Origin: a virus
Length of the DNA: 24,579 bases
IMG/VR virus record: IMGVR_UViG_3300029327_000056
Location: 1-24,579 of that record
Strand: one strand, 5' to 3'
Positions within the stretch are counted from its first letter, which is position 1. Every line of letters begins with the position of its first letter. The translations under genes and the position numbers were made by a program. Shown in pieces: positions 4,901-24,579 of the stretch. The notes beneath the pieces are model-generated. The model searched no databases, was not told the DNA's origin, and saw only the letters and a program-made list of their open reading frames with translations.

Positions 4901-6521
4901 GCCACTGTGAGCCGTCCCATACCTGAACGATTGACATCTTGCCCGAGCACGAGAACTTGAAGGAGCCCGATATCTGCTCGCTTGCCTTAATTCTTACAGC
5001 AACCAGGGCCTGGCGCGGGTACTCGAAAAGATCGAAAAATACCTCGCGCACGCATCCCAGAAATGACCGATCTCCAATCGTGTTGAGATCTGCATTGGGG
5101 CTGCCCCTGGTAATAAGAATTTCGTACGGGCCCTTTTGCCCGCTTGGGATGCTGTATTTGTAGGTGTAAGTGACCGGCTCGGTTTTTGACCCGGTGTGCC
5201 TCACATAACTGAGCGTAACGCAGCTATAGTTTTCCACTACCTCTTCGGTCCACGAGTACGGAGAGCTTCTGTACTCCGGGGGCGGAGCTCCCATCCAGTG
5301 CCAGGTGATCGTGGGGTCGGCGCCCGAAACCGTGCCTTGCGTGTGTGCCAGGTAATCATCCGCCGGGTGCGCGGTAATGTTCCACCAGTAGGAATTGCCG
5401 CCTATGCTTATGGCTTTCCCTTCCGACCACTGCGAAGGCTTGCCTCCATAGGCACCCGTCTCATCTCCGTATTGGACCAGGTTGTAAGTTATCTGCTCGG
5501 CCCCCTTGGTAATCTCCGTCCAGGTGGCATCGCCCACTTTTCGCACCTGGATCGTCATGTCTACTGCCATCTCCTGGAGGGTGGAAGTCGTCTCGCTTGC
5601 CTTCCAGAGCCCATAAGGAAATGAAAGATCCACCTCGATACCGTCAAAATCGTCGCCAACGGTTACAAAGGTATAAGGGGTTAAAAAACGGACCTCGACC
5701 GCGCTTGAATACTCCGTTTTGGTATTGGTGAACCCGGATATCGCCGGCTGGCTGAGAAAGCCGTTTCGGCATTCAATGCTTACTTCCTTGAAGTTTGCAG
5801 CCGGCTGATCGTTAATGTGAAAATCTCCGATGCCGAAGATCGGCCCGAGGCCAATGCAGATGATTGCATTTAGATACTGATCGTAGCCCAAGGTTTCGAT
5901 ATTGGATGATATGATATTGCCGTAGACCTTATGGAAGCCGTACCACCGGGCAAGTGGGATGCCCTGCTGCGCGGTATTATTCGGAGACCAGGAATAAGCC
6001 TGGGAGTCCTTGGAAGAATCACTGGAAGTGGTGCTGGCGGTTATAGGGGGAAGCAGGGCGTTTACGACCAGACCTCCCGCCAGCATCAAGCCGCCGGCGA
6101 GAATGCCGGTAAGTAAAGTATTGCCCCAAAACATCGTAAAACCCATGAGCCACGGCGCTACAAACATTGCCACGGCAGCAACCGCTATCATGAGAATCGC
6201 CCTGAGAATACTTTTGCCCCCACCGCCTCCCCCGGAGATCGCCGCAACTATCATCACGTAGTCGCCAGGCCCTGGATAGGTTAGGGAGATCTTTTCCTCC
6301 GGAACGAGGATGCCGTTCAGGTAGACAATTGCCGGCAGATCGGATGGAAAGTGTACCATCCGCAACTCCAAAAGCGACTTTGGAGCTGTAAGGGGCACGA
6401 GGACCGTCTCGCGCAGATCCCGGCGAAAGGGGTGCTCGAGTACCGCGAGAGATAGTTGCGGGTTGCGAGTTCCGGGTTGCAGGTCTTTCACCGCCGCGGA
6501 GGGAATCAAATCTTTTTCCAT
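1995..6521 (-). CDS. gpJ-like tail tip / central fibre protein
   Basis: At 1508 residues this is the largest gene and, like lambda J, it follows the L- and K-like genes. Such proteins form the tail tip and host-attachment fibre. Visible parts are: a repeat-derived N-terminus (about residues 1-26); a beta-rich start; a hydrophobic stretch (about 105-165) common in this COG4733-type family; a long tip core; an inserted beta-sandwich (about 828-1015) ending in a GAQLELG motif like that of the fibre gene downstream; a short CBM5/12-like segment (about 1030-1075, YFVGNTVRFEGKIYIC then W); and two fibronectin type III-like domains (about 1138-1235 and 1238-1330). The C-terminus is beta-rich. The ATG overlaps the end of the upstream peptidase gene by 16 bases, and its purine-rich ribosome site lies inside a palindromic repeat. 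Confidence 0.88.
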   Translation of the reverse strand: MEKDLIPSAAVKDLQPGTRNPQLSLAVLEHPFRRDLRETVLVPLTAPKSLLELRMVHFPSDLPAIVYLNGILVPEEKISLTYPGPGDYVMIVAAISGGGGGGKSILRAILMIAVAAVAMFVAPWLMGFTMFWGNTLLTGILAGGLMLAGGLVVNALLPPITASTTSSDSSKDSQAYSWSPNNTAQQGIPLARWYGFHKVYGNIISSNIETLGYDQYLNAIICIGLGPIFGIGDFHINDQPAANFKEVSIECRNGFLSQPAISGFTNTKTEYSSAVEVRFLTPYTFVTVGDDFDGIEVDLSFPYGLWKASETTSTLQEMAVDMTIQVRKVGDATWTEITKGAEQITYNLVQYGDETGAYGGKPSQWSEGKAISIGGNSYWWNITAHPADDYLAHTQGTVSGADPTITWHWMGAPPPEYRSSPYSWTEEVVENYSCVTLSYVRHTGSKTEPVTYTYKYSIPSGQKGPYEILITRGSPNADLNTIGDRSFLGCVREVFFDLFEYPRQALVAVRIKASEQISGSFKFSCSGKMSIVQVWDGSQWLLQWSDNPAWVAFDIFTQPLISGNGTGYQPWRVVRYDGIDPSRMDVAKFKEWADFCDDYVPDGKGGLEKRITFNGGFDFDSTMWEAALRVCQVGRAVPVWNGVHLTVAIDKASDPVNLYTVGNINETRFKEIFLPIEERATEIEIDYVNSENSYQRDKLTVYHPDLTPNQYRATLDLFGIVKPSEVWRAGMYRLNCNKYLIRTAEIDVDLEALNAQIGDVVFIQHDVPKWGEGGRLVEATANTASLDKAVLIAGGLNYKLMLRLAEDVIYEKAVLNRISDSVLVVKSSNLALWSEQLNNPYWNLILNEGISVNTLEMEAPNGTGTAEKLTETAVTGIHCLGRSPITISIGETYTFSIFLKNAGKRYASMIMDDGGANGIYAIFDLETGNIAKQVTFNGNATAVSCGVEWGIGGWFRCWIKGTSSAAGDWARISLAFCQDANNGWYPSYAGDVTKALYAWGAQLELGDLSPYTLTTDTPQPGSEFDDSAHFDAGQPYFVGNTVRFEGKIYICIQNTPPIPPTPADTSFWSLTDNCPVPEKYDVYAFGEVNSLVKKFRITEMSLKQDDQKATLTLVEYRDEIYQFETIDPDLNDYLHGLGPLAPPTSLKVEEFTEYEAGVYYTRAVFSWQRPNDARIVRYRVWIHNNIIGWQACGEIYGNSYVFKSIDPGLYDFFVRSEASTGQASTTAYILKQIYGKLSPPSNVSNFHVNVIGGIASLTWDEVPDRDLAFYVIKYSPITVGAVWEDATTLANYVPPRTTMFQTPARVGTYMIKAGDKNGRQSASAASAVTSISSITGLTPSGSLTNSPVFSGIMTNVTTDESGYLIISVPSHLSDISLVSQLKDFATLDDSLHSEGTYVLSGTLDCGSVANYRIMAAIESTARNYLDKMSQWTDVASRSSFSGGDIENVDVKAFIRRKSLIGDAWSDYTRFTAGDFLGRYFEFKIVLSTRENNTTPVVKSVAFNAYLPA
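6455..6467 (+). repeat. copy of a 13-base repeat, GTTGCGGGTTGCG
   Basis: The same 13 bases occur perfectly at 16679-16691 in the same orientation. Here they are followed by degenerate units (GAGTTCCGGGTTGCAGG). They are read in the gpJ frame and contribute the residues LQPGTRNPQL near the protein's start. The pattern resembles dispersed CGGGTTGCG-type repeats that I recall from intergenic DNA of various bacteria. Confidence 0.6.
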
Positions 6522-8098: not shown

Positions 8099-8661
8099 GC
8101 CGGAGTCCTTGTCAGCTTGTCGGCCGATATGTCAAACTCATGCAAAACCGTTGTTCCGTCGTCGTCATAGACCGTGACATGGGCCTTATCGACCGATATT
8201 ACCGCCTTGTTGGTGAGCATCTTCCGGGCCTTGTTAGCCTCAAGTACTGCGGCGTAGAGAGCGTCTTCCTGGGCCTGGGTGAGCGCGCCGGCTGCACCAC
8301 CGCCTCCTGTGGCAATAACTGTGCTTGCAGCGCTCTGGATCAAAAGGACCTGGACACCAGCCGAGTAGGCTATGGGATCGCTTCCGGGTCCTCCGACAAG
8401 GTTTCCTCCGGCCACTTTAGCGATGTAGTTTCCGGGCCAGAAATGTAGTTGCCAGTCCCCCAATAGTTCGACGGTGATACCGACCGCAACACTGGGTCCG
8501 AGGGTTTCTTTCCCTGAGGCTCTTGCGATTTGTCCATATAAGATCCCCTTCTCAGAAGCTTCTGCATCCCGAATAGCGTTAATTAGATCCTGTGCAAGAA
8601 CCTCAGCCTGCGGAAAGGTTACCTCGATCAGGTTGCTCGCAAAGTCAACCGAGTAGGCCAT
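8095..8661 (-). CDS. phage structural protein, unknown function
   Basis: The protein has 188 residues. The first half is alpha/beta (SNLIEVTFPQAEVLAQDLIN, then a GDWQLHFWPGNYIAKVAGGN stretch). A glycine-rich linker (ATGGGGAAGALTQAQ) leads into a C-terminal part ending TVYDDDGTTVLHEFDISADK. This C-terminal pattern is familiar from proteins beside phage tail fibres, where it is a short beta unit after a helix. The start overlaps the upstream stop (TGATG). Its place among fibre-like genes suggests a tail accessory or fibre-connector protein. Confidence 0.7.
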   Translation of the reverse strand: MAYSVDFASNLIEVTFPQAEVLAQDLINAIRDAEASEKGILYGQIARASGKETLGPSVAVGITVELLGDWQLHFWPGNYIAKVAGGNLVGGPGSDPIAYSAGVQVLLIQSAASTVIATGGGGAAGALTQAQEDALYAAVLEANKARKMLTNKAVISVDKAHVTVYDDDGTTVLHEFDISADKLTRTPA

Positions 8662-9056
8662 CAGGACAACTCCGCTACTGTGTCTTCGACCTGGGCCACA
8701 TAAATCACAACACCTGATCGAGACAAATACCCGTAAGTGGTTAGAGGCTGATATTTCGTTGTGCCGCTCGCAAACCTTACTCGGACTTCAACCAGCATCG
8801 GATTCGCAACTGCCGGTATTCCGGCAATTACTATGTCTCCACCGGGAGCCGTACCAGTTGCCAGGACGTTTGAAAGATTGCTTGCCTGGGCAATCCAGTA
8901 TCGCGACCCCGACAGGACATTTTGGAGTGTGATCGAGGCATAAAACAAAGGGTCGGTCGGCTGCCTGACAACTGATTGCCAACCGGAGCCGCAAATCAAG
9001 GACTTGGAGGACTGAAGCGTGCCGTAGACCCCGCTGGAAGTCATTCTGCAAGACAT
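8661..9056 (-). CDS. small beta-rich tail accessory protein
   Basis: This 131-residue protein has no recognised family. It is rich in valine, threonine, serine and glycine in short alternating stretches typical of beta structure, with no signal peptide or membrane helix. The centre (GSRYWIAQASNLSNVLATGT) and the segment VEVRVRFASGTTKYQPLTTY are the most structured parts. The ATG overlaps the stop of the spike-like gene upstream (TGATG) and its stop overlaps the next gene's start, so it is translated from the late operon. It is likely a virion component attached to the adjacent spike. Confidence 0.65.
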   Translation of the reverse strand: MSCRMTSSGVYGTLQSSKSLICGSGWQSVVRQPTDPLFYASITLQNVLSGSRYWIAQASNLSNVLATGTAPGGDIVIAGIPAVANPMLVEVRVRFASGTTKYQPLTTYGYLSRSGVVIYVAQVEDTVAELS

Positions 9057-10498
9057 CAGTTCACTCCAAAATCGGGATCGATAAAGTAATAATCGTTTAC
9101 GTTTGGAAAGGTGAAGGCGCTGCGGAATATCACCGTAATGTCGGAATACTGTTTGATCGACGCAGCCGTGGTGATCTCCAGCTTGAATTTATTGTAGCTC
9201 CTGGCCCCATAGGTGGTTGCCGACCAGCCAGCGGTCGAGGCTACGAGGTTGCCTGAAAGTGCTTTCGTGGTCTCGCATTTGATAAGGCCGGTCGAGTTAT
9301 CGACGTAATAAACGTCTATCCACCACTTATCCTTCGTTGGGGTTCCAAAGGTGTCGCACGCCAGCATCTCGACAGTTATCGTCTTGGATGCCGGCGCCAG
9401 GTTGTAGAACTTCTTCATCGTGCTAAGGGTGAACGGAGCAGACGGAGACGAGAGCTTGAGCGGCTGTGAAACCCTGATTGACCACGGGGTATTCGAACCC
9501 TCAGGGAGGATGGAATTAAGCACCGGATAGTTCTGGCCAGGAGTCCAGTCTATAATTCCAAGCAGTGTTTCCTTTCTGAATTGGTACAGGCTATTGTTGG
9601 TGTTGACCGAAACGATCTCAAAATTGTCCAGCTGATTAGCTGTGGAAGGACTTCCTGCCGCCCAATGGGCCAAGGCAGAATACCCTAAATTACAGTCTTC
9701 CAGCGACACCTTAACTGCCCCGTATCCGGCAAGAACAGTTGGATCGACCCATACAAAACGAGTGGTCTCGGTGGAGTTCAGCACTCTGCAACCCCTGAAG
9801 AACCATTGATTGCTTGTAACCGGGCTAGAGAAAAGGAGAACGCCACTCGGAGCGCCGCCTATATCAAAATCACAGTTATCAAACAAATAATGTACACTTG
9901 AGCCCGCCGAACTAAAGATGCCGTAAGAAGTGGCTCCCCCACCATTGCTGCTGATATCAAAAAGACAATTTCGGCACTTCGTCCAACTCATAGTTGTGTT
10001 GTTGAGACCAATCTGGTTCCATGCTACATAAGCGTTCTTGGTTTCCCAAATCAAACCGTCATAGATACCAGCAGCCAATGTGCACAATGTAAAAGTGGCG
10101 TTTGGATTATCGAAGTAGAGCCGCAATTTGCGGCCATTGCAGAGGAAATGATTGTAATCCTTGAAAGTAAAGGCACTTGTCGAGTTGAAGGATAGTTTGA
10201 GTTCTCCCCCATTAGGCCAAATAGTGCCGTCATCGACAACCCACGTAATGGGCAGTTCTCTGGTCCCCCTCGTAGCCATAGTAATAGTAGAGGTAACTGA
10301 TATGGTGATCGGGTTGGCCCCGTCGTCAGAACGGATATAGACCGTATCGCCATTGGCAATTGCATAAGCTGATCCGGTGTTGGCGAGAACGGCCTTCAGA
10401 TCGTTCCAGGCCCCAGGCTGTCCTGCCCCGGCAGCGGGATCTTTGCTCGATCCATCCCCGTTATAAGTCGCGGAGGTATCGACATACTTAATAGCCAT
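9056..10498 (-). CDS. parallel beta-helix-like tail spike candidate
   Basis: The protein has 480 residues. The N-terminal 330 residues show the look of a right-handed beta-helix: an opening YVDTSATYNGDGSSKDPA (a form of the GDGSSwdpA start common in such proteins), a GDTVYIRS step, then repeated short strands with asparagine turns and buried C, F and L (FLCNGRKLRLYF, CRNCLFDIS, YLFDNCDFDI, FFRGCRVLN). The last 150 residues form a separate beta-sandwich-like domain. Such proteins are often glycan-binding or glycan-cleaving spikes, but I see no defined catalytic site. An AGGAGG lies about 8 bases upstream of the ATG. There is only a short gap to the upstream structural gene. Confidence 0.7.
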   Translation of the reverse strand: MAIKYVDTSATYNGDGSSKDPAAGAGQPGAWNDLKAVLANTGSAYAIANGDTVYIRSDDGANPITISVTSTITMATRGTRELPITWVVDDGTIWPNGGELKLSFNSTSAFTFKDYNHFLCNGRKLRLYFDNPNATFTLCTLAAGIYDGLIWETKNAYVAWNQIGLNNTTMSWTKCRNCLFDISSNGGGATSYGIFSSAGSSVHYLFDNCDFDIGGAPSGVLLFSSPVTSNQWFFRGCRVLNSTETTRFVWVDPTVLAGYGAVKVSLEDCNLGYSALAHWAAGSPSTANQLDNFEIVSVNTNNSLYQFRKETLLGIIDWTPGQNYPVLNSILPEGSNTPWSIRVSQPLKLSSPSAPFTLSTMKKFYNLAPASKTITVEMLACDTFGTPTKDKWWIDVYYVDNSTGLIKCETTKALSGNLVASTAGWSATTYGARSYNKFKLEITTAASIKQYSDITVIFRSAFTFPNVNDYYFIDPDFGVN

Positions 10499-12265: not shown

Positions 12266-13150
12266 CTATGCTTTGCGGTTCCTGAGCATCTGACCGAGGA
12301 CGCCATACTCATTTATATCCTTGGCTACGATGCCGATAATCATCTTGTCCAAGCTGTGGGTAATTACTCCCTGTTCGAGCTTGAGAGGAGCGCTGGATTG
12401 ATTGTCGATTTTGACTTCAACGTTCAGGGCCTGTGTTGACTGCCCCGATTTCATTTCGCCGCGGCTCCACCCGCCTTTCGGAATAACTATCTCGCCCTTT
12501 TGGAGGATGGCTGGAAATTCGTCGGAAGCCAGCCCGGAGTGCAGGCGTGGAGCACCGGCCAACAGGAGCGAGCTTGCCATCCGATGGGTGCCGTCAAGCC
12601 CCACGATCCCTCCCGAGTGGAAATTGAGGAACCAATCAGGGGTTTCGCTCCACAGAATCGAGCCTTCTCCGGCCCCGCTGTTCCCACCGGTCCCGCCGCC
12701 GCCAAACCCGCCAAATCCGCCGAAAAGATTTCCCATGAGGTCTTCCAGGCCGTGTGAGAGCATTCGCGAAATGGCCTTGGACCAGGCATTTATGAGGAAG
12801 TTGCAGAAGGCGCTCCAGGCGTCTCCGGCAGAGACGATCTCGCCCTTGAAGATGCCGCTGAAAAGGCTTTTAAAACTCGAGCCGGCAGAACTGACGAATT
12901 TTTGGGTACTCGAATTCATTTCGCTTAAGGCTTTATGAGTCGATTGGAGGCTTTTCTCCGCCTCCCGGCTGACCTGTTGCTGCTGCTCGCGAGTTTTTTC
13001 CAGGGCCATTTGACGATCACGCTCAGCTGAGGCGATCTCAGCCTGAATCCGGAGTTGCTCCTCCATCGACTTAATCGTCTGATCGAAATCCCGTGTCGAA
13101 CCAGTATCACCTAGGCTCACAAGATTTATGCTGCGCCTGTTTTCTGCCAT
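12266..13150 (-). CDS. short tail tape measure protein (gpH-like)
   Basis: The protein of 294 residues follows the G/GT chaperone genes, as lambda H does. Residues about 20-85 are a charged, glutamine-rich coiled coil. A helical stretch follows (about 105-140, DAWSAFCNFLINAWSKAIS), then a glycine-rich linker, and the C-terminal third has HSGGIVGLDGTHRM...LHSGLASDEFPAIL and KGEIVIPK, close to the C-terminus of lambda-family tape measures. It is far shorter than usual for this family (lambda gpH is 853 residues). By the common rule of about 0.15 nm per residue it would specify a tail near 45 nm. There is no sign of a second fragment upstream. Confidence 0.8.
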   Translation of the reverse strand: MAENRRSINLVSLGDTGSTRDFDQTIKSMEEQLRIQAEIASAERDRQMALEKTREQQQQVSREAEKSLQSTHKALSEMNSSTQKFVSSAGSSFKSLFSGIFKGEIVSAGDAWSAFCNFLINAWSKAISRMLSHGLEDLMGNLFGGFGGFGGGGTGGNSGAGEGSILWSETPDWFLNFHSGGIVGLDGTHRMASSLLLAGAPRLHSGLASDEFPAILQKGEIVIPKGGWSRGEMKSGQSTQALNVEVKIDNQSSAPLKLEQGVITHSLDKMIIGIVAKDINEYGVLGQMLRNRKA

Positions 13151-13899: not shown

Positions 13900-14829
13900 T
13901 CATGAAAACCTGATCAACAACTCATCGTCTCCATTGCTCATCGCCAGGGAAAAAGCAGCCTTGTAGACCACCCTTCCATCGCGGTCACCCGAGCCCATAT
14001 CGCTGTACTGGATCGCGGGGGCTTCGATTGCAAACCTGTTCCCGTCAGCACTACCTATAGCCAGGTTAAGCCTCAGTGGAGTTGCGGATTGCCAATTGCT
14101 CCAGAAGGGGTGGGTAGTAACCGCCACGGTCTCCGGATCGAAACTCCCGCGAGGTTTTCTGCCCGTGATCTCGAACCCGATAACCCCGTCCAATGCTGCG
14201 ATGCTTTTTCGTTCAACTACGCTGTTGTTGATATCTACCTCGAATTTTTCCGACACCGGTCCATAGCCTCCGATAGAAAAGTCTGCCCCGAGCGCGACCG
14301 GTGGAAGGATGCCGCTGAATGTCTGAGCCGAAGGCGATGCATCCGAGGGCGAGCTGTAGAATCCTTTGAACTTCCACTCCACCATTGCCGGTTTTCCCAC
14401 TTCGATGCTGATCCTGAAAGATCCCCGGCAACCAGTGAGTTTATGGAAAAGCCGGTCGATGTACACATAGAGGGTACATGACTCAAAATTCTCCGAAATA
14501 GGAGTATAGAGCAGGTCGGTTCCGGCATTTGCCGTCTGGCTCATCCCGCATGCCCTGAAAAGGTCCCCTTCCCATCCAAATGCCGGAATCGCCCCCTTCG
14601 TTCCGGTTCCCTTCATCTCGGTTTTGAAGTCGACCTCGACTCTACTGGTCCCGCGCAGAAAACTGAGCTGCGAAAGAGAGCCTCGCAAGATATTGCGCTC
14701 GACCGCCTCACCCGCCGGCGAGATAACCAGGTCGCGAACAGCAATCGCATTCGACGCCGGATTTGGAATGGGATCGATTCCGTATTCTGTTTCAATCTTT
14801 GCAAACACCACAGTATTTCGCGTGAACAT
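13900..14829 (-). CDS. major tail tube protein (siphovirus type)
   Basis: This 309-residue beta-rich protein precedes the G/GT genes, as the tail tube subunit does in siphoviruses. The start VVFAKIETEYGIDPIPNPASNA and the strands VEVDFKTEMKGTG and FRACGMSQTANAG match the phage tail tube family in which 'AKxExxYGxdp' opens the fold. It is about 60 residues longer than lambda gpV and probably carries an extra domain. The ATG has GGAG six bases upstream, and its stop overlaps the alternative start of G. It replaces the sheath and tube pair that Mu would have here; no tail sheath gene is present. Confidence 0.82.
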   Translation of the reverse strand: MFTRNTVVFAKIETEYGIDPIPNPASNAIAVRDLVISPAGEAVERNILRGSLSQLSFLRGTSRVEVDFKTEMKGTGTKGAIPAFGWEGDLFRACGMSQTANAGTDLLYTPISENFESCTLYVYIDRLFHKLTGCRGSFRISIEVGKPAMVEWKFKGFYSSPSDASPSAQTFSGILPPVALGADFSIGGYGPVSEKFEVDINNSVVERKSIAALDGVIGFEITGRKPRGSFDPETVAVTTHPFWSNWQSATPLRLNLAIGSADGNRFAIEAPAIQYSDMGSGDRDGRVVYKAAFSLAMSNGDDELLIRFS

Positions 14830-15307: not shown

Positions 15308-15739
15308 TCAAAATCCTTCCAGGCTCGATCTCGAGAAAGCGCGCCCGGGATTGTCAACAGATGTCTCGGGTGATTTTGATTCGAGCGGATTCCCCTCGGG
15401 ATCACTCTGGCCGAGGGAAATCCTGCCCTGCGACACCTGTTCCAGGTAACGCACTGCGCCGCGATAGCGCTCGATTCGGTGCTCGGGGACCCTCTCCCTT
15501 CTCGAGTAGAGGTTGTAGACTGCAATGTCCACCGAGAGCCGCCGAATCGATTCAGGGACGGGAGAAAGGGGCACGGCTAACCTCGCACCAAGATATCCGT
15601 TTATCTCCTCATCGGCGTCGCTAATGGCCTGTTCCACCCTTGGCGCAACCACGTCTCCGGTCCCTTCGTCATCGGTCAACTGGACGAGCACGCCCTGCCG
15701 AAGCTGATTCCTGATCTGGTCAATGGTGCAGTAAGACAA
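15308..15739 (-). CDS. DUF1320 (Mu gp36-like) head-tail connector protein
   Basis: This 143-residue protein fits the DUF1320/Mu gp36 family: an N-terminal YCTIDQIRNQLRQG, the helix ISDADEEINGYLGARLAVPL, and DIAVYNLYSRRERVPEHRIE followed by YRGAVRYLEQVSQGRISLG. The family is helical and forms part of the connector below the portal. Translation begins at TTG with AGGA seven bases upstream, and no ATG is available near the conserved start. It lies between the major capsid gene and DUF1834, the standard Mu order. Confidence 0.88.
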   Translation of the reverse strand: MSYCTIDQIRNQLRQGVLVQLTDDEGTGDVVAPRVEQAISDADEEINGYLGARLAVPLSPVPESIRRLSVDIAVYNLYSRRERVPEHRIERYRGAVRYLEQVSQGRISLGQSDPEGNPLESKSPETSVDNPGRAFSRSSLEGF

Positions 15740-15781: not shown

Positions 15782-16660
15782 CTACGCAAGCCATGGAACT
15801 ACGACCAGTTCGGCACTGCCGAACCATGGGTTCCCTGCGCCAGCGGCATCGTTAGGAACCTTAAGGATGGATCGGCCGGCGCTCTCGAGTGTCGGTGGGA
15901 CCACTAGATGAGTGGGATTAATTCCCAGGGGGGCGCCTTCCTCGCTCTTGAATCCCATCATCGCGGCGCGCGCGGCAGCATAATTGGTGCCACTGAGTGT
16001 GGACTTGCTGCCGTAGGCAAGCTGCCAAAGGCCGAAGCCAACGTTCTTACGATCATCCACGCCGTAGAGAAACTTTTTGCGCATGAAGACGTTTTCATCG
16101 TCAGGACGATCTACCGATATGAAATCCGGGCGCTTTCTTATCTGAAGTATTATGGGTTTAATCGGCCGTGAAAGATCGAGCAGGAACCAGGGATCGCCCG
16201 TGCCGCCGCCCGAATTGGAAACGCTTGCGCCACCCACTGGATGATCCGTATCAAAGAAGTACTGCCTGTCGTAGCAGGCCGTCGTAAAGCCGGCCTTGAG
16301 CAACGCGAACACAAGCATGTCGGGGTGCTGTTTTGCCGCCCAGGCCAATCCCTGGACCATCGGCGTGTAGACGCCAATCTGGTCATCCTCCACATCATTT
16401 CTGTCCACCTCGATCGTGGACTCGTAGTCCTTGTTCACTATTTCGTATTTGAAGGCCGAAAGATCGCGGATTGCGCGATCGCCAACCCATTCGCGAAGCA
16501 TCGGAAAATCTCCAAGCCATTTGTAGTCAACGGACCTGCCTTCCGAGGGCACCTCCATGGCAACAATGGGCCACTGTGAAGGAGCGCCGTCGAACGACTC
16601 GTTAAAAACAGTCTTAAAGGATTTATAAATTCCGGAGAGATTTGCCTGGTCTATTATCAT
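15782..16660 (-). CDS. major capsid protein (Mu gpT-like)
   Basis: The protein has 292 residues and closely follows the Mu gpT family (HK97-fold major head protein, about 305 residues in Mu): YKSFKTVFNESFDGA at the start, then VPSEGRSVDYKWLGDFPMLR, IEVDRNDVEDDQIGVY, and a C-terminal LVVPPTLESAGRSIL and PWFGSAELVVVPWL. The start is the ATG at 16660, with GGGAG seven bases upstream. A longer open frame to 16720 is repeat-derived DNA and lacks a ribosome site. No N-terminal propeptide is apparent. A 189-base repeat-containing spacer separates it from the cement-like gene upstream. Confidence 0.92.
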   Translation of the reverse strand: MIIDQANLSGIYKSFKTVFNESFDGAPSQWPIVAMEVPSEGRSVDYKWLGDFPMLREWVGDRAIRDLSAFKYEIVNKDYESTIEVDRNDVEDDQIGVYTPMVQGLAWAAKQHPDMLVFALLKAGFTTACYDRQYFFDTDHPVGGASVSNSGGGTGDPWFLLDLSRPIKPIILQIRKRPDFISVDRPDDENVFMRKKFLYGVDDRKNVGFGLWQLAYGSKSTLSGTNYAAARAAMMGFKSEEGAPLGINPTHLVVPPTLESAGRSILKVPNDAAGAGNPWFGSAELVVVPWLA

Positions 16661-16849
16661 TGCGTTGCTCCCTTTGGCGTTGCGGGTTGCGGATTCCCAA
16701 TGCCAGTACCTGCTTTCCACTGGCTTTTTCGGATGTAAGTTTTTCTAGCGGATCGAGTGTACGGGCGCTGATTCCTGTCGTCAGTTGCGTCTGGAGTTCC
16801 AACCCGCATAACGATGCTCGTAACCCGCAAACCTTTCACCCGAAACCGC
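16661..16849. repeat. repeat-bearing spacer upstream of the capsid gene
   Basis: The spacer carries GTTGCGGGTTGCG (16679-16691), identical to 6455-6467, and near its other end inverted counterparts AACCCGCA (16801-16808 and 16823-16830) around a CGATGCTCG unit. No open frame with a ribosome site is present apart from the final stretch leading into the capsid ATG. Unlike the tightly overlapping genes elsewhere in the operon, this looks like dispersed-repeat DNA inserted between two virion genes. Confidence 0.5.
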
Positions 16850-17254
16850 CTACCTCATATCTATATCAACACCCACTTCGGTGGCGCTGATGAACTCGGC
16901 GATCGTGCCGCATGCGACCGAGTTGCTGGTGGTCTTTGCAACAGTCTGATCGTCTGAGACGTTCACGGCTGCTCCGATGTCGGTTATGGCCAAGGCCGAG
17001 GAGGCCAGGCGAAAGACCCCTTTACGCCTGACCCGCACAGTCATGTCGCCGTTTGCGCCCGCGGAGTTATCCGCCTGTTCGCCCGCGATGCCTACGAATT
17101 TGAAGTTGGCGGTGTCCGCACCCGGCGTGGCATAACCCGATGTATTCAAGCAGACGATGGACCCGGCATATATCTTTGCTCCGGATGCCACCTTGTATTC
17201 AATTTCGAGCCCCTGGCGATAGGTTGTCTTCCTATCCGTAGATAAAGCAGCCAT
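16850..17254 (-). CDS. small beta-barrel capsid cement/decoration-like protein
   Basis: This 134-residue protein lies between the prohead protease and the major capsid, the slot used for head decoration proteins. The sequence is almost all beta: YKVASGAKIYAGSIVCLNTSG, then FVGIAGEQADNS and VRVRRKGVFRLASSA, ending EFISATEVGVDIDM. This is the pattern of DUF2190-type capsid cement proteins, in which a 'ysvaaGa.iyaGalV.l...G' hairpin comes first. There is no signal peptide. GGAG lies eight bases before the ATG. The role is inferred from position and fold. Confidence 0.75.
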   Translation of the reverse strand: MAALSTDRKTTYRQGLEIEYKVASGAKIYAGSIVCLNTSGYATPGADTANFKFVGIAGEQADNSAGANGDMTVRVRRKGVFRLASSALAITDIGAAVNVSDDQTVAKTTSNSVACGTIAEFISATEVGVDIDMR

Positions 17255-17381: not shown

Positions 17382-18389
17382 TTATTCGTTGTACTTGTTC
17401 CAGGTCTCCTCGGAGATGTTGAGGAGCTTATTTATGTGATGTTGCCGATCTCCGGGACGCAAGGTTTGCCTGGAATCAAGGGACTTCGTGTCTATCCTGT
17501 CTAGAGGAACTACTCGAGGGGCCTTGGCAATAAAGAGGCGAAAACCTTCGAGGTCTTCTCTGGAATACTTTTCCGCCCACTCGCGCTGAGCGGGAGTGAT
17601 CTTGCCATCTTTGAGCGCTGCCGCTACAAGGTCACCGCGATCACGCTCGGCTAGCTTGCATTCAAGGGCGGCAACTTCAAGCGTCAGGTCCGGCTTTTGC
17701 CGAAGAGCATGAATAGTTGCAACCGTCTCGCTTTTTCCGGCTCCTTCGGCAACGCCGAGTGCGTCCATCACTTCCTTGCAGGCAACCACCGCCTCGGCCT
17801 TTTCCTTGAGCTTTCCCACTTCCCCCGAAATTTCTTCGGCTGATGACGTACCGGGCAGCCCGATCTGTTTTGCGAGTAATTCGAGAAATTCCATTCCTTC
17901 CCTCCCATTTGGGTTGTCATTTCCGTTGATAGAAGACTTGGCCGTTATCGGCTTTATCCAGTTAAGGCGCGGTGCATTGGTGAGTGCCACACGAAGCAGT
18001 TCGACAAGTCTTCGGCCGTCTTTTGACACGAGGAAGACGGGCGAAAAATAGCGGTACTCTTTTTTCGCCAGGTACTCCCGCGCCCGGTCTGTCCATTCCA
18101 CTACTGCCCACAATCCTTCTTTTCCGCGATCTTCCAGCCGCTTGATCCACCCAGCTGCCGGTGCGCGACTTCCGGCTTCGGTCTGGTGTTCGTAGTCGAT
18201 CACCATATCGAGACCTCTGATGCTGAAGCGCTCGATTACCTGCGACATTGCCTCTCCATCCACCACGAAAGACTCCGATCCCTGGATCTCAACCACTCCC
18301 CACGGAAAAACCTGGAATTGAGAAGGAACGGGAGCCCCATCGGGCAAGCCCGCGAAAAATCCGAGTCTTTGACTGCCATTGCTCTGCAC
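17382..18389 (-). CDS. prohead protease/scaffold (Mu gpI, gp32-like)
   Basis: The protein has 335 residues and matches the Mu I-type protease family. The N-terminal half (1-150) is the protease: FQVFPWGVVEI, VIDYEHQTE (residues 64-71, with D65 and H68), AAGWIKRLEDRG, EYRYFSPVF (111-119) and LTNAPRLNWI (136-145). The rest (about 155-335) is charged and helical, consistent with the scaffold region that in Mu is also made separately as gpZ. Translation starts at GTG with AAGGAG six bases ahead. The 161 bases upstream, before the portal stop, have no good gene. In Mu gp30 and gp31 would lie there. Confidence 0.88.
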   Translation of the reverse strand: MQSNGSQRLGFFAGLPDGAPVPSQFQVFPWGVVEIQGSESFVVDGEAMSQVIERFSIRGLDMVIDYEHQTEAGSRAPAAGWIKRLEDRGKEGLWAVVEWTDRAREYLAKKEYRYFSPVFLVSKDGRRLVELLRVALTNAPRLNWIKPITAKSSINGNDNPNGREGMEFLELLAKQIGLPGTSSAEEISGEVGKLKEKAEAVVACKEVMDALGVAEGAGKSETVATIHALRQKPDLTLEVAALECKLAERDRGDLVAAALKDGKITPAQREWAEKYSREDLEGFRLFIAKAPRVVPLDRIDTKSLDSRQTLRPGDRQHHINKLLNISEETWNKYNE

Positions 18390-18416: not shown

Positions 18417-18569
18417 TCAGCCACAGCCGGGAACCCGGCTTAGCCAAGAGGGTATTCCCTGTTTCTTGGTCGTCTGAATACGACTCCGGGCTACCCCCAT
18501 TTCGAACATCCCCCCACTCAGTTCAGCTTTGGGCCAATGCGGCTCCGGTTTTAATAGCGCTTCTCCTGA
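18417..18569 (-). pseudogene. possible frameshifted 3' end of the portal gene
   Basis: In the -1 frame relative to the portal, an open stretch of 50 codons starts at 18569 and reads SGEALLKPEPHWPKAELSGG and further, ending at a TGA at 18417. In DUF935 portals the helix ending in a 'fglPvp..' segment is usually followed by GE-x-L-L/P-type residues and a C-terminal tail, and here this appears only in the shifted frame. The zero frame instead ends GNGDQEKRY. A one-base loss near 18569-18571 would explain it. No start codon with a good ribosome site serves the frame, apart from a weak ATG within it. Confidence 0.35.
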
Positions 18570-19798
18570 TCACCATTGCCGACGGGCAGCTTAAAGCGCT
18601 CGGCGAGTTGATCGCGATTGAACTGAAAGCCTATCTCCGAGAGGATTTTGTAGACTTCCGCAATGGACTTCATGTCTTCGGACGGCTCGCACAAGAAGTG
18701 GAATCTAGGCACGGGCACGTCCCAGCCGTAGTTGAAACCGATAAGAGGCCTTAGGATCTGCTGAGTTATCGTTTTGGAGAGCGCCTTGCAGTCCGCCTCC
18801 AAGATGTCCTGCCGGACTTCGGAATGTACCCGCCCCAGCGCATACGATCCCGCTCCCTTGCCTCCCGGCTCGGATGTAAGAGTCTGTCCGAGGACAGCCT
18901 TCGACATTTGTGCATCGCAAAAAGAGGCCAGGCTTTCATAGACATTGAGCGATGAACCCTTCTGGGCCTCGATGAATTCTATCTCCGTGGACTTTGATAT
19001 AATGCCCGCGGCATCCGAGCCAAGCGAACGAACGGCGTGAATCAGCGCCTCGCGGTCTGCCCTGGTTGCACCCGGCTCGTATTTGCCGATCCGAAGAGGC
19101 ATACCGTAAACTTCCGCAAACCCTATCCAGTCCTTTAATGCGTAGTTCTTGAACAGGTACATCCAGGCGCACACCCGCATGATTCCGGCACGAGTATCGT
19201 AGCCGGAACGGGCGCGGCATCGGTGGTAGACGAACTTGAAGGGCGGAGGCTCGATACCCTCGACGGGGACATGATCGGTGAGGATTCTCGGTGTAAGGGA
19301 ATTCCAGAAAGTGATTTTTTTCGGGTGCACCCACCGCAGGCCTCGAATACCGACCTGGCCCTCAGAAGCCTCCCAAAGGATTTCCATTATCGAATACCCT
19401 TTTCCCAGAGCATCGAGCAGGTCCAGGACGTTTTCGTCGAAGTCGGAAAGCCCCTGAATTAGCGCGCGGCAAAAAGCAGCGGTTTCCATGGCTTGTGCTG
19501 AGGAATCGGCAGCCGCAACTTCCCATTCGAGTCCCTGTATGGCCATCTTGCGCGTCTGGAAAAGGCTTGCCAGATGTGCGTCCTTTTCCTCCATTTCCTC
19601 GAAAAGCTCTGCCTGGCTAAAAACGTCGCCCGCATCTGCCTGCCTGAAGATCCGGGCAAGCCGCCCAGGGGTGAGTCCGCTCGAAGGATAGCCGCTCCAC
19701 CGATCGCGAAGCGTCGCCGTGGCGAGTTCGCGAATATCTGGCTTTAAAGACCCGGAGACCGGGATAGGCTGGCTGAACTGGTCATATAAAATGGTCAT
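18551..19798 (-). CDS. portal protein (Mu gp29, DUF935)
   Basis: This 415-residue protein fits the DUF935/Mu gp29 portal family, the dodecameric ring through which DNA enters the head. Matching features are the N-terminal LTPGRLARIFRQADAGD, then LFEEMEEKDAHLASLFQTRK, GYSIMEILWE, LRWVHPKKITFW, LKDWIGFAEVYGMPLRIGKY and SKAVLGQTLTSEPGGKGAGS. The start at 19798 follows AGGACGG. It is about 100 residues shorter than Mu gp29 (512), missing the C-terminal tail, and a possible frameshift lies at its end. It is separated from the terminase gene by the plus-strand outer membrane protein gene. Confidence 0.9.
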   Translation of the reverse strand: MTILYDQFSQPIPVSGSLKPDIRELATATLRDRWSGYPSSGLTPGRLARIFRQADAGDVFSQAELFEEMEEKDAHLASLFQTRKMAIQGLEWEVAAADSSAQAMETAAFCRALIQGLSDFDENVLDLLDALGKGYSIMEILWEASEGQVGIRGLRWVHPKKITFWNSLTPRILTDHVPVEGIEPPPFKFVYHRCRARSGYDTRAGIMRVCAWMYLFKNYALKDWIGFAEVYGMPLRIGKYEPGATRADREALIHAVRSLGSDAAGIISKSTEIEFIEAQKGSSLNVYESLASFCDAQMSKAVLGQTLTSEPGGKGAGSYALGRVHSEVRQDILEADCKALSKTITQQILRPLIGFNYGWDVPVPRFHFLCEPSEDMKSIAEVYKILSEIGFQFNRDQLAERFKLPVGNGDQEKRY

Positions 19799-20283
19799 TT
19801 TACCGTCCTGGAATGTTTCGTTAGTCGATGTATTCCACCCCTGCTTCCACTTGCGGTCCTTCCACTTCGTAAGCAAAAGAAGCGATAAGCCGCCGTGCTA
19901 CCCTTTAGAAATGTGTTGCAGCGGGATGGGGAGGTAATAACAGGGGTTCTTTTCAGGTAGGGATAAATGAAATGAACATTTTACTGGTTATTTTGGAGAG
20001 GAGGTCAGCGTAATCTTGTGCCTCAAATGGGCCGTGCGTCTCATCATTTGACACTCATTGATTGCCTGAAGTATATTCCCGACATTCCCCAACTATTAAA
20101 ACTTTATTGATTTCCATCCATGAAGGCTACTCCATCTTATTGGTCGCACAGAGTAGCTTTCGATGTGTATTTGACCGCTGATTGGCGATGAGGTCCCAGG
20201 AAGCGCGTTGCGGTTACTGGTGCATAGCGCACGCGACTCATCTCTTATTCCTTGTTATTTTCTCTTTTAGGAGGGGCTTTGTT
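19799..20283 (+). other. 485-base intergenic region upstream of the OMP gene
   Basis: This divergent spacer holds the OMP promoter (20048-20077) and a leader of about 200 bases, then the AGGAGG at 20269-20274. On the portal side it holds the ribosome site of the portal gene. I see no convincing minus-strand promoter, so the portal and following genes would depend on transcription reading through from the terminase side. A 30-codon GTG frame at 20018-20110 is noted but not called. Confidence 0.5.
20048..20077 (+). promoter_or_regulatory. sigma70-type promoter for the OMP cargo gene
   Basis: A perfect TTGACA (20048-20053) is followed after 18 bases by TATATT (20072-20077), one base off the consensus -10. 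Start of transcription would be near 20084. Its strength and independence from late phage control suit expression in the lysogen. Confidence 0.65.
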
Positions 20284-21438
20284 ATGAAGACGGCAATCAT
20301 GTGCAGTTTTGCTTCCCTGCTCATCTGGACCGGCGTGTCGTTTGCTCAGACCGTCAACACTCCTTCAACTGCACCGACCACCTCCAATACCAGCCCCTTC
20401 TTTATCAGTGCGGAGGCGCTCTTATGGTGGATGAAGGATAGTCCGGCGCCACCGCCGCTTGTCAGCACTGGAAACATCGGGGAGGCTGGAACAAACGTGG
20501 TATTGGGGGGAAAACAACTTGATACCGGCATGCACCCCGGCTTCCGGGTTACGGCTGGGTATTGGGAAAAGGAAAAATGGGGCCTTGAGGCAAGTTTTTT
20601 CTATCTCTCCTCCCAATCGACCGGCCGGAGTGTAAGTTCTTCGGGCCAGATCGATTCCCAATTACTCCTCGTTCCTTTCTATAACGTCCTTCGCCAGGAG
20701 GAGGACTCATCTTTCCTGTCTTTTCCAGGCGCTTTCTCGGGTCAGGCACACGAAGAGATGAGTTCCCGAATGTTTGGCGCCGAACTGATGGGCGGAACAA
20801 ACTTGGTGTCGAACAGGAGATGGAAAGTGGATCTTCTGGGAGGTTTTAGATACCTTAATCTTCGTGAGAAATTCTCATTGGCCACGAGCAGCCCGTTCAT
20901 CGACATTCCCAATGATATCTACCAGACGATTGATCAGTTCAATACTACAAACCATTTTTACGGGCCTCAGGCCGGCTTGCGGGCCAGTTCCGGATGGGGT
21001 CCGCTGACGGTCAACGGCACGTTTAAACTCGCTCTGGGCGCTATGGTCCAATCGGTTGATATTGACGGATCCCTGCTCACCAACGAATTCAACGCTCTGA
21101 GTTCTGCCTTCAAATATCCAGGCGGTTATTTCGCTCAGTCCACCAATATTGGCGAACACAGCCAAACTGACTTCGCTGTGATCCCGGAGGTGGGGCTAAA
21201 CCTGGGTTACAGAATCACCGACCGAATCAACGTTTTCGCCGGCTATACATTCCTCTATACAAACAACGTGGTTCGACCCGGCGACCAGATAGACCGCAGC
21301 ATCAATCCCTCACAGGGCGCGACATATACCGGGCTGCCTGATACACAGCTCATAGGAGCGGCCAGACCGGCGTTCTCGTTCAAGGAATCGGATTTCTGGG
21401 CTCAGGGAGTCAACATGGGGATCGAGTATCGGTTTTAA
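20284..21438 (+). CDS. BBP7-like outer membrane beta-barrel protein (cargo gene)
   Basis: The only plus-strand gene encodes 384 residues with a signal peptide (MKTAIMC...VSFA, cut before Q22). It resembles the BBP7 outer membrane family: FISAEALLWWMKDSPAPPPL near the start of the mature protein, VLGGKQLDTGMHPGFRVTAG, then paired amphipathic strands (WGLEASFFYLSSQ, RRWKVDLLGGFRYLNL, ITDRINVFAGYTFLY) and the C-terminal SDFWAQGVNMGIEYRF ending in phenylalanine, the usual barrel-assembly signal. The start at 20284 follows AGGAGG by nine bases; an upstream in-frame ATG at 20182 has no such site. It lies between terminase and portal, which are adjacent in Mu, and is antisense to late transcription. 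A likely role is altering the lysogen's surface, for example superinfection exclusion (inference). Confidence 0.82.
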   Translation: MKTAIMCSFASLLIWTGVSFAQTVNTPSTAPTTSNTSPFFISAEALLWWMKDSPAPPPLVSTGNIGEAGTNVVLGGKQLDTGMHPGFRVTAGYWEKEKWGLEASFFYLSSQSTGRSVSSSGQIDSQLLLVPFYNVLRQEEDSSFLSFPGAFSGQAHEEMSSRMFGAELMGGTNLVSNRRWKVDLLGGFRYLNLREKFSLATSSPFIDIPNDIYQTIDQFNTTNHFYGPQAGLRASSGWGPLTVNGTFKLALGAMVQSVDIDGSLLTNEFNALSSAFKYPGGYFAQSTNIGEHSQTDFAVIPEVGLNLGYRITDRINVFAGYTFLYTNNVVRPGDQIDRSINPSQGATYTGLPDTQLIGAARPAFSFKESDFWAQGVNMGIEYRF

Positions 21439-21590: not shown

Positions 21591-23051
21591 TCAGTAGCGT
21601 TTGAAAGACGTGGCCCGGCGCTCTCCCAGGGCTTCGTATTCCACCGGGCCTCCCTCGCTACGAGTGGCAGCGTGCCAGGCGAGGGCACATGCTACAGCTG
21701 AATCGCCGTGGCGTCTGCCGCCGTCCCGACCTCTTCCACGGTAGTTTTCCGGGACACGCGCAACACCTTTTTCCATCCTAACCGAGCGCAGGTCGTCAAG
21801 TATATCGGGGTCTTTGGGGATCAGAATGGTTCTATCTTCGAAGGCCGCCCTGCAGGACGGCATGTTTTCGAGGTACCACTTGTCGGTCAGCATCACCTGT
21901 TTGATGCGCCGGGCTCCGTATCGCTGCATGGCGACTTCGGCCAGGTAATGGCCGTTTCCTCGCGCATCCATTGCCCCTCCCGAAAAGCGAGGCAGCCTGT
22001 CGGCGATATGGAAAAGGACCTGCTCCTGCTGGCGGAAGGGAACATTTCGAAGCTCGACCACAAACGGGGCCCGGTACCTTAATTTTCCGACCTCCTGGAG
22101 CGGGAAAATCACAGTGAGATCTCCGCTTCGGCCGAAATCCTCACCGAAAAACGAAGGCCGCTCCGGCGCGAGATCTTCCATGAGAGGAGTGACATTTTGC
22201 CTGAGCCAGTCGTTCATTTCGACCCACCGCCGCTCTTCGGGCATTTCAGCGAACTCTGGCCTGCATGCCCGGCGAATTACGGGAATGTTATCATCCATGC
22301 AGGACTCAATCAGGGCCCGTGGAATCCATGCCCCCGATCCGCGACTCGGAACGCAAAAGAGTTCCTCGTCCGCAAACTCGCCGTAGAAATCGACAAGTTC
22401 CTGCCTCCAAGCCGCCTCTGTCCCTTCCGACCAAGCCTTTCCGGTCCGCAGGCATATTCGCCTGAAAAGCCCTTGTTGCAGCGCATCATCAAGGGTGATA
22501 CGGTGGAGTGAATAGGGCTTCTTACACGACCGCACATCGTTTACGAGTTCATTGAAAGGATTTTCGTCGCCATTGTGGGTGCTTATTACGGCCAACCTGC
22601 CGCCCCACATGAGCAGGGCGACAGCGGCCTTGAGGAGCTGAGGCAGGTCGTTGTGGAATGCCGCTTCATCAATTACCACCTTGCCCTGCTTGCCCCGGAG
22701 ATTGCTCGGGCGACTTGATAGGGCCGTTACCCTGAAATCCGACGCAAAACGTATTCGATAGCCGAGGATGTCCTTTTCCTCATCCCGGATCATCGCCTCC
22801 TCCATCCGGTCGGCCGCAATGCCCAGGTTTCGAGCCCAAAATGCTGTATCGTTTATGAATTCGATCGCCATTTCACGGCTGTATCCGATGTACCAGACAT
22901 TCATCCCGCCGGTGGAAGCCGCCGTGAGAGCTGAATCCGCCGCTTCGCACCAGCTGAGCCCAACCCGCCGCGACTTTTCGCAAACCTTCACGGGCGCCGG
23001 GTCGTAGATCCATCTTTGCTGGTAGGGCAAAAGGGAAAATGGCGATATCAT
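21591..23051 (-). CDS. terminase large subunit (Mu gp28-like)
   Basis: This 486-residue DNA-packaging motor has both expected domains. The ATPase carries a divergent Walker A, KSRRVGLSW (26-34), typical of the Mu gp28 group, a Walker B KVVIDEAA (124-131, with D128 and E129), and a coupling motif STHNGDENP (157-165). The C-terminal RNase H-like nuclease has acidic residues D305 (GEDFG), D362 (AMDARG) and D450 (RRHGDSAV). The length is near that of Mu gp28. Its ATG overlaps the DUF3486 stop (ATGA). In Mu the portal gene follows directly; here the OMP gene intervenes. Confidence 0.93.
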   Translation of the reverse strand: MISPFSLLPYQQRWIYDPAPVKVCEKSRRVGLSWCEAADSALTAASTGGMNVWYIGYSREMAIEFINDTAFWARNLGIAADRMEEAMIRDEEKDILGYRIRFASDFRVTALSSRPSNLRGKQGKVVIDEAAFHNDLPQLLKAAVALLMWGGRLAVISTHNGDENPFNELVNDVRSCKKPYSLHRITLDDALQQGLFRRICLRTGKAWSEGTEAAWRQELVDFYGEFADEELFCVPSRGSGAWIPRALIESCMDDNIPVIRRACRPEFAEMPEERRWVEMNDWLRQNVTPLMEDLAPERPSFFGEDFGRSGDLTVIFPLQEVGKLRYRAPFVVELRNVPFRQQEQVLFHIADRLPRFSGGAMDARGNGHYLAEVAMQRYGARRIKQVMLTDKWYLENMPSCRAAFEDRTILIPKDPDILDDLRSVRMEKGVARVPENYRGRGRDGGRRHGDSAVACALAWHAATRSEGGPVEYEALGERRATSFKRY

Positions 23052-23569
23052 TCAGCAATACCGAGTATTTTTCGCCGGATCTCCTCGGCAGCTTCTTCTG
23101 ACAGGCCGTTTTTGCGGTTCTTCTGTCCGACCTCTTCGGCGGCCTTCTCCACCCGTGCCCGGAATTCCCGCCGCAACCGCTCGCGCTGTACATTCGACGA
23201 CTGGAGCCTTGCGAAATCGGAGAGAAGCTTTGGCAGGGTTTCCAGTTCTATTTTTCCATCGAGCTGAGACTCAATTATCATCTGTGTAAAGAGTCGGGAT
23301 GCCGCTTCGCCAAGCAGCAGGCCGTCCTCAGTATCGGATGCCAGCGCACGGGATTTTTCCTCGATCACGCGCAGCCGCCGGTAGCATTCCAGAAATTCGG
23401 CGCCGTAGCGGCCGATGGTCGTCTTGGTAATATCTTGGCCCTGCTCGGCAAGAAAGCTCCTTATTTCCTCGAAGCTCGAGCCTTCCACAAGCAACCGATC
23501 GACCTGTTCGGCAATATGTAATGGAAGCTCTTTTCCCTTCCCTTTTCTTTTCCTTGCAGTCTCGGCCAT
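23048..23569 (-). CDS. DUF3486 protein (Mu gp27-like), probable small terminase
   Basis: At 173 residues and just before the large terminase, this fits the DUF3486/Mu gp27 family. A basic N-terminus (ARKRKGKGK) leads into a helix-turn-helix-like region at about 17-62 (LPLHIAEQVDRLLVEG, SFEEIRSFL, ITKTTIGRYGAEF), suited to binding packaging-site DNA. A long helical, coiled-coil C-terminus follows. The ATG at 23569 overlaps the upstream stop as TGATG; an in-frame start at 23608 would lie inside the upstream gene. As for Mu, the small terminase role is inferred from position and the DNA-binding fold. Confidence 0.85.
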   Translation of the reverse strand: MAETARKRKGKGKELPLHIAEQVDRLLVEGSSFEEIRSFLAEQGQDITKTTIGRYGAEFLECYRRLRVIEEKSRALASDTEDGLLLGEAASRLFTQMIIESQLDGKIELETLPKLLSDFARLQSSNVQRERLRREFRARVEKAAEEVGQKNRKNGLSEEAAEEIRRKILGIAE

Positions 23570-23814
23570 CAGGCGAGTTCCCTCTCGATTTCCTGGATCT
23601 CCGCGCATAAGGGAAGGTATAACTCCCGCAGCCGGTGGAGATCGGATATAAGCTCCAGGGCCTCATCTGTTCGCAATTCCTTTAGAGGTATGATGGAGGC
23701 TGGCTGAACGATCTGCTTTATAGCCGAAATAAGTCCTTGAGCCCGCGCCGCAAGGCGCATCCGCTCCATCTTTTTTTCCTGAAGAGCCCCTTTGAGGATC
23801 AGCCGCTCACTCAT
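23569..23814 (-). CDS. small helical protein in the Mu gp26 position
   Basis: This is an 81-residue protein predicted to be two long charged helices (LILKGALQEKKMERMRLAAR and ELISDLHRLRELYLPLCAEI) with a short PASIIPLKEL link. There is no membrane segment. It occupies the slot between the gp25-like and gp27-like genes of Mu and is coupled to both (ATGA at its start, TGATG at its end), with GGAGG four bases before the ATG. Function unknown. Confidence 0.75.
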   Translation of the reverse strand: MSERLILKGALQEKKMERMRLAARAQGLISAIKQIVQPASIIPLKELRTDEALELISDLHRLRELYLPLCAEIQEIERELA

Positions 23815-24177: not shown

Positions 24178-24579
24178 CTAGCTCTTCCAAGCCCTGACGC
24201 TCTTTTCCACCGAGCGGCCGACAATGTAGCCGCCAACCCCGAGCTTCAGGAGTTCCCACATGTCGGATGGGACATCGAGGCGGGCAAGCGAGAAAATTGG
24301 GGCAATGATATAGTTGTGAGCAACGACATAGGTGAAGGTGAGCATCAGGATTGGACGCCAGTTTCTCTGGAGCCAGCTTTGACCGCCCGCCTCCGCCACA
24401 ATTATTTGTGCCTGCGATTCGAGTTCTTTCTGTAGGAAGGAGTAGTCCTGGCTGAGCATCTGGATTTCGAGATCATGCTTTAATTTGTTCGCCAAGTCTT
24501 TATCCTGCACCATCTTGTCGATTACTTCGACGGCCTGGCCGATCAACTTTCCGATCACGGGCAATGTGCTAAGAAACAT
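24178..24579 (-). CDS. holin, 3-TM / GTA-holin type
   Basis: The 133-residue protein has an N-terminal region with a charged helix (about 15-55, LANKLKHDLEIQMLSQDYSF), then the family hallmark SWLQRNWRPILMLTF (68-82) opening the first clear membrane helix, a second hydrophobic stretch around 88-98, and a last one around 110-122. This is the layout of the three-TM holin family found in lysis modules and gene transfer agents, which permeabilises the inner membrane for the endolysin. The ATG is the last codon of the window, so a longer N-terminus or an endolysin gene beyond the edge cannot be judged. Confidence 0.75.
   Translation of the reverse strand: MFLSTLPVIGKLIGQAVEVIDKMVQDKDLANKLKHDLEIQMLSQDYSFLQKELESQAQIIVAEAGGQSWLQRNWRPILMLTFTYVVAHNYIIAPIFSLARLDVPSDMWELLKLGVGGYIVGRSVEKSVRAWKS

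Follow-up and report, generated by a model that had tools for sequence, protein, structure and literature searches.

Phage morons, among them lambda lom and bor and the porin Lc/NmpC of phage PA-2 (a precedent that our literature search did not recover), are single surface or outer-membrane genes that lie among late phage genes and carry their own sigma-70-like promoter. A second group of described systems is the gene transfer agents, of which at least three independently exapted and functionally characterised cases have been counted (PMC9765227). Those of the RcGTA type combine vertically inherited, selected head-tail genes with a short tape measure, which in RcGTA comprises 113+83+20 residues (PMC7296036), and have no replication or integration genes. 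Titles and abstracts of the literature yielded no Mu-like or Desulfobacterota gene transfer agent. Here we analysed a stretch of 24,579 nucleotides (the window; IMG/VR record IMGVR_UViG_3300029327_000056), which corresponds to G000:C30:16381-40959 of a 4.6-Mb genome in 119 contigs. It most likely holds a domesticated Mu-headed particle cluster of ~24 kb, in which a gene for a predicted BBP7 outer-membrane beta-barrel protein separates the terminase from the portal gene. The recognised genes of the cluster, with supporting matches and, where determined, their dN/dS, are as follows.

24178 to 24579, minus strand: GTA_holin_3TM-family holin, running on past the window to C30:41166 (PF11351, E=1e-16; phrog_3427)
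23048 to 23608, minus strand: terminase small subunit, Mu gp27 family (PF11985, E=1e-24)
21591 to 23051, minus strand: terminase large subunit (phrog_2, E=4e-36; dN/dS 0.053)
20284 to 21438, plus strand: predicted BBP7 outer-membrane beta-barrel protein, 384 aa, the feature in question (PF07585, E=1.4e-77; orthologue in UBA696; dN/dS 0.138)
18551 to 19876, minus strand: Mu-type portal, likely ATG at 19798 (PF06074, E=4e-108; dN/dS 0.084)
17382 to 18389, minus strand: Mu I-type protease/scaffold (PF10123)
16850 to 17254, minus strand: capsid cement/decoration protein (PF09956)
15782 to 16720, minus strand: Mu gpT-type major capsid protein (PF10124, E=2e-123; dN/dS 0.031)
15308 to 15739, minus strand: head-tail adaptor (phrog_195, E=9e-41)
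13900 to 14829, minus strand: tail tube protein (PF18906)
12266 to 13150, minus strand: shortened tape-measure protein, 294 aa, matching long tape measures at their C-terminal end
1995 to 6521, minus strand: lambda-J-type tail tip protein (phrog_31, E=3e-148)
760 to 1971, minus strand: tail fibre-like protein, the last element gene on this side (phrog_4492)

Between the host flanks, the cluster holds only structural genes, the holin, BBP7 and unmatched proteins, several window proteins having no family assignment. Pfam and PHROGs profile searches of ORFs of ~60 aa or more found no transposase, integrase, replication gene or repressor between the host flanks on C30, so neither the transposition genes nor the repressor of an inducible Mu-like prophage is present. 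The holin family is also known from ordinary phages. Like RcGTA-type agents, the cluster is inherited vertically under purifying selection, is free of replication and integration genes and has a short tape measure. Unlike RcGTA, it has a Mu-type portal, capsid, protease and terminase together with a surface gene in the packaging module; we call it a candidate gene transfer agent. The tape measure has 294 aa in the window and 266 aa in G002, vs 1050 aa in G015, a member of another genus; its reduction to the C-terminal end suggests a very short tail. Genes of the Mu F and G type were absent between portal and protease in the window's genus, while G015 has both (PF04233, PF05069), and the completeness of the particle is therefore uncertain.

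Two loci provide a comparison with what are apparently true Mu-like prophages. In G011 (C423) and on a second contig of the window's own genome (G000:C21), a Mu transposase gene (PF09299) lies upstream of the same packaging genes, and the families and order of the packaging and head genes are those of the cluster. Unlike these two, the cluster has no Mu transposase, and it departs from Mu-like prophages in having neither F nor G and in its short tape measure. The C21 locus (L131, G000:C21:1-20000), the second related phage locus of this genome, encodes an AAA ATPase in addition to the transposase. A gene of the G011 locus considered as a MuB candidate proved to be RdgC-like, and that assignment was ruled out.

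To place the cluster in its chromosome, we compared the window's genome with UBA696 (taken to be G008); all genomes of the genus are fragmented assemblies. The cluster occupies the same chromosomal locus in both, with collinear flanks of 81-87% nucleotide identity: mfd and selA on the left, and Hsp20, a receiver-PAS-kinase, a sensor kinase, thiD and thiL on the right (mfd, thiD and thiL were identified by eye). Substitution rates were estimated by the Nei-Gojobori method with our own script, taking the host flank genes as the yardstick. Results showed that dS was 0.44-0.86 in the main host flank genes and 0.50-1.35 in the element genes, the two ranges overlapping, and that dN/dS was 0.03-0.16 in element genes and flanks alike. 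Part of the tail module reached a dS of 1.0-1.35, above the flanks, and the tail-appendage genes at window positions 8661-10498 are not orthologues of the 1043-aa gene that UBA696 has there, which marks a module swap. We read the raised tail dS and the replaced tail gene as signs of some recombination, by exchange with phages. The terminase tree matches host taxonomy (supports 100/99, 98/93 and 99/98): the four copies from the window's genus grouped together (100/99) and then joined G012 and G015 (99/98), a pattern that is affected by shared ancestry. Taken together, the comparison indicates that the cluster has most likely been inherited vertically with the chromosome under purifying selection.

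These data bear on two other readings of the cluster. Related phages could have integrated independently in each species at a shared preferred site, with no vertical descent, and the tail genes with raised dS and the replaced gene would fit such a history. We consider it very improbable, since the cluster has no integrase or transposase, its stripped content is identical, host and head gene dS overlap and the tree follows host taxonomy. Alternatively, the cluster could be a drifting remnant of a Mu-like phage that has lost its early region, as the missing early genes, the missing F and G and the shortened tape measure might suggest. Hardly any credence can be given to this reading, because the low dN/dS range given above extends over head and tail genes at a dS of 0.5-1.35, and the stripped cluster keeps its locus in several species and its neighbouring gene in other genera. 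A dead prophage was rejected on dN/dS and synteny. The absence of transposase, integrase, replication genes and repressor, the shared locus, the host-like dS and the tree matching the hosts argue for a domesticated cluster rather than an inducible prophage. The earlier note had assumed a lysogen that switches between lysogeny and virion production, and this assumption was not borne out by a cluster that has no lysogeny genes and passes down with the chromosome. It had also held that its idea would fall if related phages lacked BBP7 and the prophage were dead; the first part holds for most relatives, whereas the second does not hold for the element.

In the other genera represented by G012 and G015, the cluster lies beside the same receiver-PAS-kinase gene, without BBP7. 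This receiver-PAS-HisKA_3 kinase gene (L029:964-2694; C30:41863-43593) adjoins the cluster in three genera and is a candidate regulator. Its orthologues were full-length (>600 bits) in six genomes of the family and partial in G012, and they occurred only in family genomes carrying a related portal, which was present in 7/7 genomes with an orthologue (in G003 as fragments only), a co-occurrence that shared ancestry also affects. In G002 and G003, the kinase gene adjoins thiD/thiL and is not visibly beside the cluster.

The position of BBP7 is unusual among related loci. As the earlier note had stated for Mu, terminase and portal genes are normally adjacent: across 54 loci holding both, the median gap was -1 nt. 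Gaps above 1 kb were found in only three loci, all from the window's genus, namely the window (1792 nt), the UBA696 element (2639 nt) and G002 (4964 nt), and only the first two contain BBP7. The same insertion, which that note proposed to look for in relatives, was recovered only in UBA696. Over 11.3 kb, a further IMG/VR contig, IMGVR_UViG_3300029327_000054, has exactly the sequence of G008, and the BBP7 observations are therefore two, not three; only two independent lineages carry the gene in this junction. BBP7 is read from the plus strand, antisense to its neighbours, so that it diverges from the portal gene and converges on the terminase gene, in agreement with the arrangement first described.

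In G002, the insert between portal and terminase (L047, G002:C76) is a host-type operon with an FAD oxidoreductase/FlpD protein and MTHFR genes, and may represent a real rearrangement or a chimeric contig; its identification as a por operon was ruled out. In UBA696, a palindrome (L003:11250-11390; -88.5 kcal/mol, z -11.3) sits between BBP7 and terminase and is one copy of a repeat scattered through the genus, whose genomes each give up to 58 pattern matches. Among close strains, the junction of L050 differs from those of L049 and G015 by copies of a ~200 bp tandem repeat.

As judged from the DUF2283 pair of UBA696 (described below), the palindrome, the tandem repeats and the G002 operon found there, the junction is prone to insertions. 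BBP7 might accordingly be an ordinary host gene, for example for a porin or another cell-envelope protein, that landed in a tolerant site and has nothing to do with the cluster. The unrelated items gathered in the junction speak for this, as do the distant BBP7 genes of three genus genomes, which lie outside phage genes. Against it, BBP7 was already in place before G000 and UBA696 split and has been retained between two essential phage genes, even though its loss would restore the usual junction; retention would still be compatible with neutrality toward the cluster. This is a strong rival, which we judge possible but somewhat unlikely.

The PF07585 match of the product spans the whole model (1-350/350; 261.7 bits vs a cut-off of 26), which upheld the proposed BBP7-like identity. 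As read from the sequence, the N-terminus MKTAIMCSFASLLIWTGVSFA resembles a Sec signal, the protein ends in Phe, and an AGGAGG stands ahead of the ATG. The full-length profile match is shared with other BBP7 barrels, but here the gene lies inside a phage-derived cluster and in a phylum that rarely has the family, with BBP7 in 2/395 sampled genomes, the window's own being one; that genome yielded a single BBP7 gene. Searches of PHROGs and of 50,697 phage records gave no match for BBP7, an alignment scan of viral contigs returned the UBA696 copy again and nothing else, the PDB profile search had zero matches, and the literature held nothing relevant on BBP7. An AlphaFold model built from 5 sequences had a pLDDT of 28 and was discarded, so that the signal-like N-terminus and the terminal Phe are the features pointing to an outer-membrane barrel beyond the profile match. 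Distant BBP7 genes (24-27% identical; L038, L039 and L040) were present in three other genus genomes, away from phage head genes, and the one in L039 adjoins type VI secretion-like genes (by eye). The UBA696 orthologue is at the same place and 82% identical, and dN/dS between the two was 0.138 (Nei-Gojobori), a value that, like the synteny, is based on one species pair. Conservation of gene and promoter in the sister species and a dN/dS of 0.14 support BBP7 as a kept and functional gene.

Two candidate signals lie between the portal gene and BBP7:

20048 to 20077, plus strand: promoter-like site TTGACA-18-TATATT, 11/12 sigma-70 matches, both hexamers identical in UBA696
19948 to 19968, minus strand: 21-nt block upstream of the portal gene, identical in both species by sequence comparison, a possible minus-strand start signal

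The near-consensus promoter reported earlier was thus confirmed at the sequence level, and position 20048, given there as the start of the feature, is the -35 of this site, while the BBP7 ATG is at 20284. The site points away from the portal gene and toward the terminase. Chance alone would place about 0.005 such sites on each strand of the junction, far below what was observed, and the hexamers are unchanged in UBA696 within a block only ~70% identical overall. The 31-nt promoter block had no other occurrence in 11 genomes of the genus. Directly after BBP7 there was no T-tailed hairpin, and the junction contained no strong terminator that would block read-through.

BBP7 resembles phage morons as an extra gene with a promoter sequence of its own between normally adjacent genes. 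It differs from them in its antisense orientation and in its carrier, a cluster that is inherited with the chromosome and has no replication genes, and from the textbook moron in having no recognisable terminator. Since no T-tailed hairpin follows the gene, we call it moron-like rather than a classical moron.

The same signals bear on an antisense switch, in which BBP7 would be on while the phage genes are silent, terminase-to-portal read-through would silence it, and its own transcription would hinder the portal. The antisense position within the terminase-portal stretch, the strong promoter-like site and the want of a strong terminator against read-through all suit this idea. We nevertheless regard it as improbable: the cluster has no repressor or lysogeny genes, and the portal may start by itself. 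The conserved 21-nt block may be an independent portal start or promoter, which would make read-through unnecessary.

We instead give about an even chance to a moron-like surface gene with its own promoter in a vertically inherited, domesticated particle cluster, likely of the gene-transfer-agent type. Under this reading, BBP7 would be an accessory gene that entered a phage-derived head-tail cluster at its terminase-portal junction, and would be transcribed from its sigma-70-like promoter while the cell makes no particles. The protein would be exported through Sec and inserted in the outer membrane, where it may alter the surface that the cluster's own particles, or related phages, encounter, by receptor masking, self-exclusion or as a recipient trait. 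The cluster itself would make DNA-packaging particles that carry host DNA. This model does not need antisense interplay with the packaging genes, although such interplay is possible.

A broader proposal is more doubtful and is put forward tentatively: an independently domesticated Mu-headed gene transfer agent, which several genera of a single family keep at the same locus beside a receiver-PAS-kinase found only in carriers, with one lineage bearing a barrel in the packaging module that influences particle uptake. If true, a Mu-headed cluster preserved intact at a single locus in more than one genus would add another, distinct origin of gene transfer agents, in anaerobes for which little is known about how genes are exchanged, and the surface gene in the packaging module would make recipient choice or exclusion testable. 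It also follows that some 'viral' contigs of IMG/VR are chromosomal, inherited elements.

In UBA696, the promoter occurs twice, in a 53-nt direct repeat (89%). The two promoter-bearing repeats (junction L003:9132-9795) flank a 71-aa ORF, which had no Pfam match, and the DUF2283 gene that it precedes. The repeats with these two genes possibly form a small cargo module.
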